Shown piece by piece: positions 14,031 through 45,586 of a stretch of DNA of 45,865 nucleotides (its first letter is position 1; each line of letters opens with the position of its first letter). Origin of the DNA: an uncultured Phascolarctobacterium sp. (GTDB lineage: Bacteria; Bacillota; Negativicutes; Acidaminococcales; Acidaminococcaceae); assembly GCA_947630795.1 (NCBI GenBank), contig CANRJC010000014.1, positions 1 through 45,865 of the forward strand, written 5' to 3'. A model generated the notes under the pieces. It was not told where the DNA came from and ran no database searches. It saw only the letters and a list, made by a program, of their open reading frames with translations. Position numbers and translations under genes: made by a program.

Positions 14031-14462
14031 ATGGCATTGTACAGCGAAAAGGTGATGGATCATTTTCGCCATCCCCGCAACGTAGGCGTCATCGATGATG
14101 CGGACGGCATCGGCGAAGTAGGCAACGCCAAATGCGGCGACATCATGAAGATCTATCTGAAGATCGAGAACGACATCATCACAGATGCGAAGTTCGAGAC
14201 CTTCGGCTGCGGCTCCGCCATAGCATCCAGTTCTATGGCCACCGAGCTGATCAAAGGCAAACCCCTGTCCGAAGCGTTGCAACTTTCCAACAAGGCGGTG
14301 GCGGAAGCGTTGGACGGTCTGCCGGCCTACAAGATGCACTGTTCGGTGCTGGCAGAGGAAGCCATTAAGGCGGCGGTGCAAGATTACTACGAGAAGCACG
14401 GGGTCGCCTACGATAAAACGCAGTTCCCCGACTGCGCCTCCTGCGCTCACTGCTGCGAGTGA
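14031..14462 (+). CDS. iscU: Fe-S cluster scaffold protein IscU/NifU N-domain type
   Basis: A 143-residue scaffold on which [2Fe-2S] clusters are built with sulfur from IscS. It begins MALYSEKVMDHFRHPRNVG. The three cluster-ligand cysteines are C35 (NAKCGD), C60 (FGCGSAIASSS) and C104 (KMHCSVLAEEAI), and D37 is kept. An in-frame GTG at 14022 lies inside the ribosome site, so the ATG at 14031 is chosen. The C-terminus is unusual in adding PDCASCAHCCE, four Cys in eight residues, beyond the normal fold; this may bind metal. No separate chaperone genes (hscAB) or ferredoxin follow, unlike the isc operon of E. coli. Confidence 0.95.
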   Translation: MALYSEKVMDHFRHPRNVGVIDDADGIGEVGNAKCGDIMKIYLKIENDIITDAKFETFGCGSAIASSSMATELIKGKPLSEALQLSNKAVAEALDGLPAYKMHCSVLAEEAIKAAVQDYYEKHGVAYDKTQFPDCASCAHCCE

Positions 14463-14655
14463 AAAAGGTAGAAGCTGCGAGCTCTGTCTGTCGCAAGTGA
14501 GAAAAGCAGAAGCTATGGTCTCTTTCTGTCGTGAGCGAGAAAAGTAAAAGCTACAGCTCTGAGTGAGAAAAGCAGAAGCTATGAGTCCTTTCTTTTGTGA
14601 GCGAGAAAGGTAAAAGCTATGAGCTCTGACTTTTATGGTGGTGAAAGTAAAAGAC
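14462..14655 (+). repeat. Five tandem repeats, 38 bp period
   Basis: The gap between iscU and the second rrf2 gene is made of abutting units that start gtgagaaaagcagaagcta and run through a pyrimidine-rich ctctgtctgtcgtga half. Units begin near 14462, 14500, 14538, 14566 and 14604; the third is 10 bases short. Because 38 is not a multiple of three and the units contain stops, it is not coding. No promoter or terminator is evident, so the repeats are probably transcribed within the iscS-iscU-rrf2 unit. Confidence 0.75.
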
Positions 14656-19934: not shown

Positions 19935-20179
19935 AAAAAGGAAAAGGCGAAAGGCCGTGAGAATTTTCCGCAAAGTCCGAGGGGAAAAGCCCTGTCGTTT
20001 TTCAGAAAAGTCCGAGGCCCAAAGCCACGCCGTTTTCCCGAAAAGTCCGGGGCGAAAAGTGCCGTTGTTTTTCAGAAAAGTCCGAGGCAAAAAGTTTCGC
20101 TGTTTTTCAAAAAAGTCCAAAGCGAAAAGCCACGCTGTTTTTCCGGAAGAGGAGGGGGCGAAAGCCAAGAGGAAAAATT
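19935..20179. repeat. Tandem repeats, 35 bp period
   Basis: Six abutting 35-base units start at 19935, 19970, 20005, 20040, 20075 and 20110, with a worn seventh from 20145. Each reads gaaaagtccgaggc, then gaaaagccacgctg, then tttttca on the plus strand, with copies differing by several bases. The period breaks reading frame, so it is not coding. On the plus strand the array ends in a terminator-like hairpin (aagagg 20167-20172, cctctt 20184-20189, T-rich tract to 20199). Confidence 0.85.
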
Positions 20180-20311: not shown

Positions 20312-20460
20312 AACTCATCAAGAGCGGTGGAGGGAAAGGCCCAATGAAACCGCAGCAACCATCAGGCCAAACCTGATAAGGTGCTAATTCCTGCGCCGGC
20401 CGCAAGATGAGAAGGCTGTAAATACAGGGCGTTCTCAGGTGCTGAGAACGTCTTTCTTTT
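20312..20460 (+). promoter_or_regulatory. SAM-I (S-box) riboswitch with terminator
   Basis: The S-box core is clear: ctcatcaagagcggtggagg, then caatgaaaccgcagcaacc, ggtgctaattcctgc and agatgagaag. P1 pairs ctcatc (20314-20319) with gatgag (20406-20411). The terminator is gttctcag (20431-20438) with ctgagaac (20442-20449), then tctttctttt. The anti-terminator is visible: tgagaa (20408-20413), the 3' side of P1, can instead pair with ttctca (20432-20437). Binding of S-adenosylmethionine therefore stabilises P1, frees the terminator and turns transcription off. Confidence 0.96.
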
Positions 20461-20511: not shown

Positions 20512-21690
<1,179 letters not shown>

Positions 21691-27151: not shown

Positions 27152-28897
27152 TCACTTCAGCCCGTATTTTGCTTTGATCTTTGCTTCGTCGGGGGTCACA
27201 TAGTAAGTGGTCTGCTCGGTGAAGATCACGAAGCCCGGCGGCGCCCCCGCCGGTTTTTTCACATAGCGGCGCAGAGTGCAGTCCACCGGCACTTGGCTGC
27301 CTTGGCGAGCTTTGCTGAAATAAGCGGCAAGTTCTGCCGCTGCGGCGATGGCCTCGGGGCCGGGGCGAGGACCGAAACTTTTCAGCAGCACGTGGCTGCC
27401 CGGTATATTTTTGGTATGGAACCACAGATCTTTGGGGCTGCCGATGGTGAAGGTCACCAGATCGTTCTGCTTATTGTTCTTGCCCACGTAAATAAAACAG
27501 TCGGGCCCGCAGGAAAAACGATAAGGCTGAGAGGCTGCCTGCTTATTTTTTTTGCCGGTCCCTCCCCGCTTGGGGCGTAACAGCCCCGCCTCCTGCAATT
27601 CGGCAGCGATCTCCTCTGCTTCTTCCCGGGTGTCGGCGGTGTCGAGAGTTTGGGCCACGCTGTCCAGATAGGTGAGGCGGTCTTTGGTCTCGCGCATTTG
27701 TTTTTGCACTTCCGTGCGGGCCGTTTTATATTTATTGTAGCGTTTGTAATAGGCCTGGGCATTGCCGTTGCCGCTCAATTTGGGAGAAAGAGGGATGAGG
27801 GTGGGCTCGCCGTCGTAAATATTGTTCAAAGTAACTTGCGTCGCCCCTTTTGGCAGGCTATAGAGATTGGCCATGAGGGTGTCTGCCAACTGCCGCTGCC
27901 GCTCGGCACAGCCGGCTTCTTCAAAATCGGCCGCAAGAGCCTGCAATTTGCGCCGCAACCTTTGGCTCTCGTTGGTCACCAAGTTTAACAATTCTGTTTT
28001 GCGGGGCGGGGCCAAAGGGGTCAACGCGGCGGCAAAACGCAAAGCGGCGAGGGCCGAAGGGAAGGCTTTCGCCTTTTCTCCAGCCGTAATTTGCAGCGGC
28101 TCGAGGAGGAGCAGGGTCTTCAAACGCCCATCTTTGCCGATGTGGGCATAAACGGGCGAGGCAGCGGCAGCGGCTGCCTCTTGTAAATTTGCGATAGCCG
28201 CCCCGAGAGCCGCCTCTTGTTCTTCGTTCAAATTTTTCGCTTGGGGCTCGATGTTCGCTCTCAGCAGCAGCTCTGCCGCCGTGGCCCGGCCGATGCCGCA
28301 GGTGGCGCTCACCAAAGCGGCGAGGGCTCCCCGGGCAAATGTGAGCTCCCGCATTTTTGCAACGATGGCGGCGGGGGAAGCGCTGTCTATGGCAAGGCCG
28401 GCCTGAGGAGGGGGCGGAAGATAGGGAAGGCCGGGCAGCAGTTGCCGATAACTGTTCTGCCCTGGGCCGATGTGGCGCAGGCAGTCGATGATGCGGCCCT
28501 CTTCTGTGAGGATGATGTTGCTGTTGCGGCCGGTGAGCTCGAAGATAAGTTCTTTGGTGCACAGCTTGCCGGCAGCGCCCAGATAAGCTGCTTCTAAGAT
28601 CAAACAGCGCTCTAAGCCCTCCTGCTTCAGACCGATGATGCGGGCCTCTTCCAAATGTTTGCGCAGCAGCATGCAAAAGGCAGGAGGCATCGAGGGATTT
28701 TCCCCGGGGCTCTCTTGCAAAAAAAGGCAGGGCCCGCCCTGTCCCAAGTCTGCCGCGAGGTAGAGGACGGCGGCCTCTTTCTTCACGTGGAGGCAGAGGC
28801 TGTGCTCTCCTTGATAAATTTTTTCGATGCGCCCCCCTAAAAGGAGAGGGGCCGTTTCTTTTTTGATGACCGCAAGGGCGAGACCTTCCAGATTCAT
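27152..28897 (-). CDS. rqcH: NFACT family protein RqcH (ribosome quality control), also called FbpA
   Basis: A 581-residue NFACT protein. The N-terminal domain begins MNLEGLALAVIKKE and includes FELTGRNSNIILTEEGRIIDCLRHI (parts at about residues 119-143). A helix-hairpin-helix and a long coiled coil (about 300-420) follow. The C-terminal NFACT-R domain holds YVGKNNKQNDLVTF and DLWFHTKNIPGSHVLL (about 478-510). RqcH binds split 50S subunits with stuck peptidyl-tRNA and adds alanine tails that mark the chain for degradation; in pathogens the same family was described as fibronectin-binding. Start is the ATG after gagggag. Its own promoter lies 48 bases upstream. Confidence 0.94.
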   Translation of the reverse strand: MNLEGLALAVIKKETAPLLLGGRIEKIYQGEHSLCLHVKKEAAVLYLAADLGQGGPCLFLQESPGENPSMPPAFCMLLRKHLEEARIIGLKQEGLERCLILEAAYLGAAGKLCTKELIFELTGRNSNIILTEEGRIIDCLRHIGPGQNSYRQLLPGLPYLPPPPQAGLAIDSASPAAIVAKMRELTFARGALAALVSATCGIGRATAAELLLRANIEPQAKNLNEEQEAALGAAIANLQEAAAAAASPVYAHIGKDGRLKTLLLLEPLQITAGEKAKAFPSALAALRFAAALTPLAPPRKTELLNLVTNESQRLRRKLQALAADFEEAGCAERQRQLADTLMANLYSLPKGATQVTLNNIYDGEPTLIPLSPKLSGNGNAQAYYKRYNKYKTARTEVQKQMRETKDRLTYLDSVAQTLDTADTREEAEEIAAELQEAGLLRPKRGGTGKKNKQAASQPYRFSCGPDCFIYVGKNNKQNDLVTFTIGSPKDLWFHTKNIPGSHVLLKSFGPRPGPEAIAAAAELAAYFSKARQGSQVPVDCTLRRYVKKPAGAPPGFVIFTEQTTYYVTPDEAKIKAKYGLK

Positions 28898-29063: not shown

Positions 29064-29378
29064 TTTCGAAAAAGCGACGATGCTCTCACCTTTATCCGTT
29101 TGAAAATGTCGAAGGTCTCGACACCTAAGTTCTTTTGAAAATGTAAGAGGTCTCGCTGCCTTTGTTGATTTGAAAAAACCAGAGGCCTGCGAGCCTTTAT
29201 TCATTTGAAAAAGACACAGGTCTCGACACTCATGGTCATTTGAAAAAGCAAGAGGTCTCGACATCTTTGTTGATTTGAAAATGTCGAAGGTATCGGCACC
29301 TGTGTTCGTTTGAAAAAATCAGAGGTTTCGACACCTATGTTCATTTGAAAATAGAGGAAGACTCGGCACCGCTGCCCG
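29064..29378. repeat. Nine tandem repeats of exactly 35 bp
   Basis: Nine abutting units start at 29064, 29099, 29134, 29169, 29204, 29239, 29274, 29309 and 29344. Each opens tttgaaaa on the plus strand, continues with a variable a/t-gtc-a/g block, then gaggtctcgacacct, and ends in gttca or gttga. The first unit (tttcgaaaaagcgacg) is the most diverged, but every unit keeps the 35-base length. The array lies wholly between the rqcH promoter (28945-28974) and the miaB promoter (29410-29438), so neither promoter would transcribe it. The period breaks any reading frame. Confidence 0.93.
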
Positions 29379-29409: not shown

Positions 29410-29438
29410 TTGCCATTTCGACGGCATTTTTGTATAAT
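29410..29438 (+). promoter_or_regulatory. Promoter of the miaB-mutSL unit
   Basis: TTGCCA (29410-29415), a 17-bp spacer and TATAAT (29433-29438). The start codon of miaB follows 33 bases later. Confidence 0.82.
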
Positions 29439-29471: not shown

Positions 29472-30788
29472 GTGAAAGGATATTTCGTCTTCAATTTCGG
29501 CTGTCAGATGAACGAGGCGGACGCCGAACGCTACGCCGGACAGTTGGAAGAATTGGGTTACAGCGCCTGCGCCGATCATCGGGACGCAGATATCATCGTG
29601 CTCAACACCTGCTGCGTGCGGGAAAGCGCCGAGAAGCGCATCCTCGGTAAATTAGGCGAAGTGCTGGGGCTGAAAAAGACCAAGCCGGAGCTGTTGCTGT
29701 GCCTCACCGGCTGCCTGGCCCAAAAAGAAGGAGAGCGGCTGCAAAAACGCTTCCCTCGTTTGGACTTGGTGTTGGGCACCGCTTATGTGAGCCAATTCAA
29801 AAAAATTTTGAGCGACTACTTGGCCGACAGAAGACGCAGCGCTTATTTGGACATCGCCGGGGGCGACGCCGACGAATTCGCCGGCGCCAAAGTGAGGCAG
29901 AGCGCTTATTCGGCGTGGGTGCCCATCATGTACGGCTGCAATAATTTTTGCACATATTGCATCGTCCCCTATGTGCGGGGCAGGGAGAGGAGCCGTTCGG
30001 AAGAGGCGATCATCGCCGAGCTCACCGCCGCCGCAGCCGCCGGTTATAAAGAAGTGACTTTGTTGGGGCAAAACGTCGATTCTTACGGCAAAGACCGGGG
30101 AGAGAAAGAAGCCTTCGCCCGTTTGTTGCGCCGGGCAGACGAAGCGGGGCTCGAAAGATTGCGCTTCATGACCAGCCATCCTCGGGACATGACAGAAGCG
30201 GTGATCGAAGCGGTGGCAGAGTCTAAACATATCTGCCGCCATTTTCACCTGCCCTGTCAGGCCGGCAACAACGAGATCTTGCGGCGGATGAACAGAGGCT
30301 ACACCAGGGAGCGCTATCTCGAATTGGTGACGTCCATTCGCAAGCACATCCCCGAGGCTGCCATCACCACCGACATCATCGTCGGCTTCCCCGGGGAAGA
30401 CGAGGCTGCCTTCGACGACACCCTCTCTTTGGTGCGAGAAGTTGCTTTCGACAGCGCTTTCACCTTCATCTATTCACCTCGGGGCGGCACTCCCGCGGCC
30501 GTTATGCCGGGTCAAGTCCCCGCGGAGATCAAAAAAGAACGGCTGCAGAAGTTGATGGACGTGCAAAATGCCGTCAGCTTGGCCAAAAACAAAGCTTTGG
30601 TGGGGCAAGTGCTGGCAGTGATGGCCGACGGTCCCAGCAAACAGCCGGGCATTTACAGCGGCCGCACAGAAGGTGGCAAATTGGTGCTGTGGCCGGCTCT
30701 AAGACCCTATCGGCCCGGGGAAACGGTGCAGGTGGCCGTCACCGAAGCTCAAACTTGGCAAGTGAAGGGACAGGAAGTCGCAAGATAA
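29472..30788 (+). CDS. miaB: tRNA-2-methylthio-N6-dimethylallyladenosine synthase
   Basis: A 438-residue methylthiotransferase that adds a 2-methylthio group to i6A37 of tRNA. The N-terminal UPF0004 domain has cluster cysteines C11 (FNFGCQMNEAD), C47 (LNTCCVRESAE) and C81 (LTGCLAQKEG). The radical SAM cluster is C156, C160 and C163 in YGCNNFCTYCIVPYVRGRE. A TRAM domain ends the protein (about 370-435). The frame opens further upstream through the -10 box; the GTG at 29472, 8 bases after ggagagg, is the start. It supplies the second step after MiaA, encoded 5.5 kb downstream in the same gene run. Confidence 0.96.
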   Translation: MKGYFVFNFGCQMNEADAERYAGQLEELGYSACADHRDADIIVLNTCCVRESAEKRILGKLGEVLGLKKTKPELLLCLTGCLAQKEGERLQKRFPRLDLVLGTAYVSQFKKILSDYLADRRRSAYLDIAGGDADEFAGAKVRQSAYSAWVPIMYGCNNFCTYCIVPYVRGRERSRSEEAIIAELTAAAAAGYKEVTLLGQNVDSYGKDRGEKEAFARLLRRADEAGLERLRFMTSHPRDMTEAVIEAVAESKHICRHFHLPCQAGNNEILRRMNRGYTRERYLELVTSIRKHIPEAAITTDIIVGFPGEDEAAFDDTLSLVREVAFDSAFTFIYSPRGGTPAAVMPGQVPAEIKKERLQKLMDVQNAVSLAKNKALVGQVLAVMADGPSKQPGIYSGRTEGGKLVLWPALRPYRPGETVQVAVTEAQTWQVKGQEVAR

Positions 30789-38534: not shown

Positions 38535-38850
38535 ACAAAAATAAAAAAAGTCTAAGCTAAAACCATCAAGAGAAAAATGAAAAGATATATCCCCACGCCT
38601 AACACTTCGACAGGCTCAGTGGGCGGCGTGCTCGAGTTAAGATACATAAGACAAAGATCTCGAGACAAAAATAAAAAGGCCTAAGCTAAAACCGGCGAGA
38701 TAAAAATAGAAATATCTAAGTTAAGATACTCAAGGCAAAAATAGAAAGCTCTAAGTTAAAACCGGCAAGGCAAAAATAAAAAGTCTAAGACAAAACACTC
38801 AAGAGAAAAATAAAAAGACATAAGCAAAACGCTTAAGAGAAAAAAGGAGA
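38535..38850 (+). repeat. Tandem repeats of 34-38 bp, interrupted by a palindromic insert
   Basis: The gap between xerD and the deacetylase gene holds A-rich units of the type acaaaaataaaaaggccta, then agctaaaaccggcgag. Clear units lie at 38665-38699, 38700-38734 and 38735-38769 (35 bp), 38770-38803 and 38804-38837 (34 bp), with earlier ones from 38535. Around 38590-38633 an unrelated hairpin element interrupts a unit. No reading frame survives, and no promoter is obvious. Confidence 0.87.
38590..38633. repeat. Small palindromic (REP-like) element inside the repeat array
   Basis: Nested inverted repeats: cacgcc (38594-38599) with ggcgtg (38625-38630), and cact (38603-38606) with agtg (38618-38621). 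The core cacttcgacaggctcagtg resembles a short sequence scattered in many bacterial genomes. Its first 13 bases recur at 1323-1335. The A-rich repeat continues on both sides as if split by the element. Confidence 0.6.
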
Positions 38851-45224: not shown

Positions 45225-45586
45225 CTTTTATTGAAAAGTAAATTTTTCCGAGATAGATCGAGCGAAAATAACAGAGAAGTAAAAGCCGAAGAAATTTTAG
45301 ATGAAGGTATGAGCTCACGGCCTACGTCCCTGCAGCGCCGGCTTTTCGAAAAAGCAAGAAGATCTCAGAGCCGAGTTTTGGGAAAAACAGAAAAGCCTCT
45401 CGCCCTCGAGCTTGTGCGGAAAAGCGAAGAGCATTCAGCAATAAGTCTGCGAGAAAAAGCGAAGAGTGCTCAGCCTTAGGGCGATGCGAAAAAGCATGGG
45501 CTGCTCAGTCCTCGATGTAAAAAAATAAAGGTCATCTCAAAAAGCGAAAGTCGATCTTAAAAAGCAAGAAGCGATCGTAAAAGATG
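45225..45586 (+). repeat. Degenerate A-rich tandem repeats, 35 then 20 bp
   Basis: Loose units of about 35 bases open with gaaaaagcgaagagtgctc or close variants from about 45350 to 45520. They give way to three 20-base units (from 45521: aaaaaaataaaggtcatctc, then aaaaagcgaaagtcgatctt, aaaaagcaagaagcgatcgt). No gene is supported. Confidence 0.65.

Follow-up and report, generated by a model that had tools for sequence, protein, structure and literature searches.

Intergenic tandem repeats with unit lengths in multiples of seven in Phascolarctobacterium, viewed from a nine-unit array upstream of miaB

The array between the rqcH-like gene and miaB

The DNA analyzed here, referred to as the window, is a stretch of 45,865 nt from an uncultured Phascolarctobacterium sp. 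of the family Acidaminococcaceae (contig CANRJC010000014.1, assembly GCA_947630795.1). A divergent gap in the window separates an rqcH-like gene from miaB, which is followed by mutS. The gap contains a tandem array, designated A1, and a predicted promoter for each of the two genes:

27152..28897, minus strand: NFACT/RqcH-family gene (E-values 5e-102 with the EfbA model and 3e-34 with the RqcH model, both matches below the curated cut-offs)
28974-28945, minus strand: predicted promoter of the rqcH-like gene, TTGTCA-18-TATAAT (11/12 consensus matches)
29064..29378, plus strand: A1, nine 35-bp direct repeats (unit alignment, TRF and self-comparison)
29410-29438, plus strand: predicted promoter of miaB, TTGCCA-17-TATAAT (11/12 consensus matches)
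29472..30788, plus strand: miaB (TIGR01574, 468.8 bits, above the cut-off)

A1 is situated between the two predicted promoters and upstream of each, with the miaB promoter beginning 32 bp past its last base. This agrees with the initial annotation, which had put the array outside both transcripts.

The units start at 29064, 29099 and so on to 29344, making nine abutting 35-mers with zero internal indels; the consensus of units 2-9 is TTTGAAAAAGTCAGAGGTCTCGACACCTATGTTCA. In a self-alignment of the kind that the initial annotation had proposed for offset 35, the identity was 0.66, 0.63 and 0.67 at offsets 35, 70 and 105, and these three stood alone, compared to 0.42 or less at every other offset from 20 to 110. 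TRF called 29087-29351 with period 35 and 7.6 copies, while a 28-base pattern of the unit, with up to three mismatches, had seven matches compared to zero expected from 100 shuffles. The unit starts, the self-identity and the TRF call thus bear out the earlier description of nine exact 35-bp units, with unit 1 and the 3' half of unit 9 being weak. Since the units abut and the whole unit repeats, leaving no unique spacers, a CRISPR array was rejected, again as described before. No coding match turned up in A1 and a coding reading was rejected as well, in agreement with its description as noncoding.

The mean identity among units 2-9 is 69%, with a maximum of 86% for a pair. The A-tract TTTGAAAA is unchanged across these units (P<0.0005 compared to random placement of mismatches), and the six columns right after it are among the most variable of the unit. 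The heptads of the consensus are unlike one another, therefore A1 was rejected as a heptanucleotide SSR (STRR-like), and its 7-bp phase, described below, is statistical only.

We counted 54 mismatches and zero indels over eight units, a count to be read with the caveat that arrays are recognized by their regular period. From the noncoding ratio of 0.05 to 0.14 indels per substitution the expected number of indels was 2.7 to 7.6, depending on the aligner. The suggestion that unit length is constrained holds in part: the indels are fewer than the ratio predicts, but detection is period-based and 1-bp shifts are present in other arrays (e.g., L037:4423-5063).

A1 consists of head-to-tail direct units of tens of bp and varies by whole units between relatives, as do A3 and the arrays with 35-, 70- and 105-bp steps described below; both properties are those of a VNTR or minisatellite. 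An operator array for a dimeric protein was rejected because dyad symmetry was absent across 24 arrays (Stouffer z 1.05; P 0.08 for A1 alone). Iterons of a replication origin or a regulator were rejected given the many loci genome-wide and the lack of an initiator or regulator gene among the neighbors, and a structured RNA family was rejected since no Rfam covariance model matched A1.

Arrays and the seven-base step across the genome

The initial annotation had recognized A1 while overlooking two further 35-bp arrays of the window (A2 and A3) as well as the inner 7-bp period. The arrays found besides A1 are:

14458..14634, plus strand: degenerate array of related type, GTGAGAAAAGCAGAAGCTATGAGCTC... 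(unevenly spaced; TRF gives 38/66)
19950..20150, plus strand: A2, second 35-bp array of about five units, GAAAAGTCCGAGGCGAAAAGCC..., in a divergent gap (TRF and self-comparison)
38640..38845, plus strand: A3, third 35-bp array of about five units, ...AAAAATAAAAAGTCTAAGCTAAAAC... (TRF and species comparison)
45400..45525, plus strand: weak lag-35 array near the window end (best local identity 66%)

The unit sequences of A2 and A3 differ from that of A1, and A3 ends about 15 bp ahead of the next ORF. The divergent gap with A2 also contains a SAM riboswitch (RF00162, 84 bits) at 20312-20413, upstream of a plus-strand gene starting near 20512; this was the only Rfam match in the window.

In a sample of the window genome (G000) covering 806 kb of 1.91 Mb (42%), 12 noncoding arrays had lag 35, compared to 0-4 at each of the remaining lags between 15 and 68. 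There were seven and nine arrays at lags 69 and 70, and four and five at lags 104 and 105. The extrapolated number of 35-bp arrays in this genome is about 28. A sequence-neutral pattern of three GAAAA words spaced 35 bases apart had 34 matches in G000 (about 15 separate arrays) and 24 in the sister species (G001), compared to at most two per genome elsewhere in the sample of 200 genomes of the class. Among these 200 genomes the 35-bp arrays are specific to this genus, where they occur in two species.

The arrays are located in tandem and divergent intergenic gaps and rarely in convergent ones. In tandem gaps of both species, GAAAA mostly read in the sense direction of the gene downstream (about 10 loci compared to 2, a small sample). 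The longest array, L037:4388-5086 on contig C1 of G000, comprises about 18 of the 35-bp units, arranged in a higher-order pattern of 70 bp, and its orthologue in G001 is shorter. Some unit profiles were alike beyond permuted columns (A2-B3, z 7.3; B1-B5, z 8.6; A1-B2, z 5.5); many other pairs had no likeness, or matched best in opposite orientation or at an arbitrary rotation. With only some pairs alike, direct homology of all arrays was rejected. The GAAAA-anchored units have a weak common consensus.

The unit lengths preferred by intergenic tandem repeats were 7, 14, 21, 28, 35, 42, 70 and 105. For noncoding arrays of G000, 37 of the 64 non-overlapping TRF periods were divisible by seven compared to 9.1 expected (P 8e-16); for coding arrays the count was 12 of 95. 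With the 35n and AGTKTGG families removed, 14 of 40 noncoding periods were divisible by seven (P 9e-4). The excess in the G001 sample rests on the AGTKTGG family, without which 4 of 20 periods were multiples of seven, not a significant number. Arrays of this family are true heptanucleotide SSRs made of near-identical tandem 7-mers, and the family is also genus-specific (11 matches in G000, 47 in G001 and 0 in 39 relatives). Profiles of the 35-bp units had a strong fifth harmonic at period 7.0 (z 9.6), a value reached in 0 of 1000 column permutations preserving the A-tract block; the pool was 24 arrays, not all independent, with some picked via the GAAAA pattern and some coming from G001.

Arrays at L039:18881-19124, L040:6445-6535 and L197:5039-5182, with periods 14, 28 and 42 and degenerate AARNNNN-type heptads, are in line with the rule of multiples of seven. 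An AGTGTGG array in G001 directly follows an imperfect palindrome (GCTCCCTCAGCACAGC...GAGGGAG) and is inserted relative to L037:7723 (contig C1); together, the palindrome and the array resemble a small mobile repeat associated with the heptamer family. A 188-bp insertion of G001 at L039:17304 contains the palindrome GTGTCAGCACTGCTGACAC and is probably a further small mobile element.

We also observed the seven-base step in intergenic autocorrelation, which in both species rose and fell smoothly with lag modulo 7, and which was flat in the other genera of the family sampled. For lags 5-83, with lags divisible by three left out as a guard against missed genes, the z value was 15.5 in G000 and 7.4 in G001. 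The contrast had a sharp peak at 6.95-7.0 bp and vanished at about 6.7 and 7.25. Outside the genus z was near zero: -0.5 for the remaining Acidaminococcaceae genera in the sample, also -0.5 for genomes of Selenomonas type, and -0.7 for Clostridia/Bacillota gaps totaling 71 kb. Control moduli 4 and 8 gave no signal, and the signal at modulus 5 was that of lags 35 and 70.

In gaps without a detectable array the contrast had z 7.2 at lags 5-20 and faded by about 80 bp, as expected for slippage tracts interrupted by indels. The signal survived masking of AGTNTGG, GAGTG and A/T runs. A first coding-region contrast hinted at a weak 7-bp signal in coding cores (1.47 and 1.07); given that the local contrast had no 7-bp signal to speak of there, we claim none for coding DNA. 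The lag-autocorrelation contrast was clearer than single-base DFT power, whose 7-bp value for array-free gaps was noisy. This analysis was designed after the TRF periods of G000 were known, with G001 serving as the replicate, though a close relative. Gene calls were heuristic and some gaps hold missed genes (e.g., L229:1988-2926), which should dilute the 7-bp signal rather than create it.

Turnover between the two species

The noncoding DNA of G000 and G001 has diverged by 7.7%. Since no pair of A1 units is more than 86% identical, no A1 unit has been duplicated since the species split. At the same place and between the same flanks, G001 has about three units compared to nine in G000. Units were probably lost in G001, because units newly gained in G000 would still be nearly identical. 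The proposal that the array is young in copy number is thus not supported, and the comparison of copy number at this gap, put forward earlier as a check, showed that the number is not maintained. The three units in G001 share GAAAAAGTCAG, a sign of local homogenization.

Units of orthologous arrays are 83-86% identical between the species, compared to 92% for noncoding DNA overall. In the orthologue of A2 the units are reshuffled. A3 differs by one exact 35-bp unit (38731-38765), absent from the sister species, with a 13-bp repeat containing the A-tract at the junction; elsewhere the arrays differ by exact steps of 35, 70 and 105 bp. When 278 kb of G000 was aligned to G001, 5 of the 15 noncoding indels of 30-200 bp were exact multiples of 35 (P 4e-5), and 10 of the 32 of 7-200 bp were multiples of seven (P 0.011). 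Among small noncoding indels 1-bp events dominate, and only five were of exactly 7, 14 or 21 bp.

Loss of repair genes as the cause of instability in the genus was rejected, as MutS, MutS2, SbcD and RecJ are all present. With the tested genes of mismatch repair and hairpin processing in place, a simple repair defect does not account for the genus.

Origin of the arrays and relation to known repeats

The arrays are genus-specific, old and variable by whole units; their unit lengths are quantized in heptads, and the intergenic DNA of the genus has a 7-bp phase. A1 is probably a decaying minisatellite of this genus-specific kind, turned over in heptad steps. Neutral slippage, one of the options in the initial annotation, agrees with this preferred reading. 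Short heptamer tracts would arise and lengthen in seven-base steps, by replication slippage or by unequal exchange at short homology. After drift, a block of five heptads with an intact A-tract seed (TTTGAAAA) could be duplicated or deleted in register as a unit. Serving as the alignment seed, the A-tract would be conserved while the remainder of the unit drifts, and remnants of turnover broken by indels may account for the faint 7-bp autocorrelation in array-free intergenic DNA. A regulatory role at miaB and the rqcH-like gene is not needed and is unsupported. On a broader scale, it is conceivable, and we say so tentatively, that the intergenic DNA of the genus is laid out on an exact 7-bp lattice, through seven-base replication quanta or reading by a genus-specific protein or filament, with the 35-bp arrays as its crests.

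Against slippage, the zero indels over eight A1 units are more regular than neutral drift predicts, and slippage in 7-bp steps would sit beside few exact 7-, 14- or 21-bp indels between the species. The invariant TTTGAAAA block could equally be a candidate binding site. The main rival is the possible reading of intergenic DNA by a protein at 7-bp or A-tract spacing. The heptad phase would then be selected, with a putative genus-specific DNA-binding or nucleoid protein making contact every 7 bp or once per A-tract and the arrays being its strongest sites. The drift of other columns around the unchanging A-tract, the confinement of the phase to intergenic DNA, even away from arrays, and the same array positions in two species favor such a scaffold. 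On the other hand, the units lack dyad symmetry, the copy number of A1 is not kept, array units evolve faster than other noncoding DNA and not slower, and no candidate protein was found; an exact integer period fits sequence copying equally well. We regard this selected phase as unlikely. It is doubtful, too, that the common period was inherited from one ancient 35-bp element, scattered over the genome by recombination or through a mobile intermediate and altered by drift since. The likeness of some profile pairs and the weak consensus of GAAAA-anchored units fit such an origin, but many pairs are unlike, opposed or arbitrarily rotated, the arrays showed neither mobile genes nor terminal repeats, and the other multiples of seven and the array-free phase are left unexplained.

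Local functions fare worse. On either strand the computed fold of A1 is better than that of shuffled sequence (z -3.7 and -4.5), which, with the mostly sense GAAAA of tandem gaps, would suit leader RNAs in which hairpins recur, or a Rho- or terminator-like role downstream. Still, A1 is in neither predicted transcript and has no Rfam match, no structure common to the arrays was seen, and the strand bias in its small sample may reflect purine loading, so a role in RNA appears very improbable. Iterons or an insulator for the rqcH/miaB promoter pair, as had been suggested, would explain the position between two promoters and the regular spacing. This idea is hardly tenable: the A-tract pattern recurs at some 15 separate loci of the genome in several gap types, dyad symmetry is not general, most A1 units are gone in the sister species, no A1-like match was found at miaB in other genera, and the neighbors (the rqcH-like gene, miaB and mutS) include no replication genes. 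The case cautions against taking a repeat array for a regulatory element of a promoter just because the two are adjacent.

A literature search found nothing on such arrays in Acidaminococcaceae, nor on unit lengths as multiples of seven. Bacterial VNTRs or minisatellites are similar in being intergenic direct tandem units of tens of bp whose copy number differs between relatives. Ordinary VNTRs, however, have unrelated unit lengths within a genome, whereas the old, strongly diverged units described here have quantized lengths. The 37-bp LTRR repeats of heterocystous cyanobacteria are likewise same-length tandem intergenic repeats at multiple loci, confined to a lineage; their copies are alike in sequence, while the arrays described here have little in common beyond period and A-tract.

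Heptanucleotide SSRs are over-represented in bacteria, as with GGGAATC in Xanthomonas, GGGGA(C/T)T in Nostoc and TAACTGA in Beggiatoaceae, and polymerase slippage has been proposed for them (PMC4692102, PMC4679880). These papers also cite a proposal that seven bases are the stretch held by the DNA polymerase (PMC4692102, PMC4679880). The arrays of this genus resemble such SSRs in being intergenic and lineage-specific with a seven-base step, in having no assigned function and slippage as the proposed origin, and in occupying sites common to close relatives with varying length and sequence. For the over-representation of seven-base repeats in bacteria, the genus offers a natural test of the polymerase-stretch idea, the standing proposal. 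Published heptanucleotide SSRs are near-perfect copies of one heptamer, whereas here units of 14-105 bp have little inner repetition and lengths of 7n, and the 7-bp phase reaches array-free intergenic DNA. In contrast to the published heptamer repeats, the seven-base quantum here governs units that are long and diverged.
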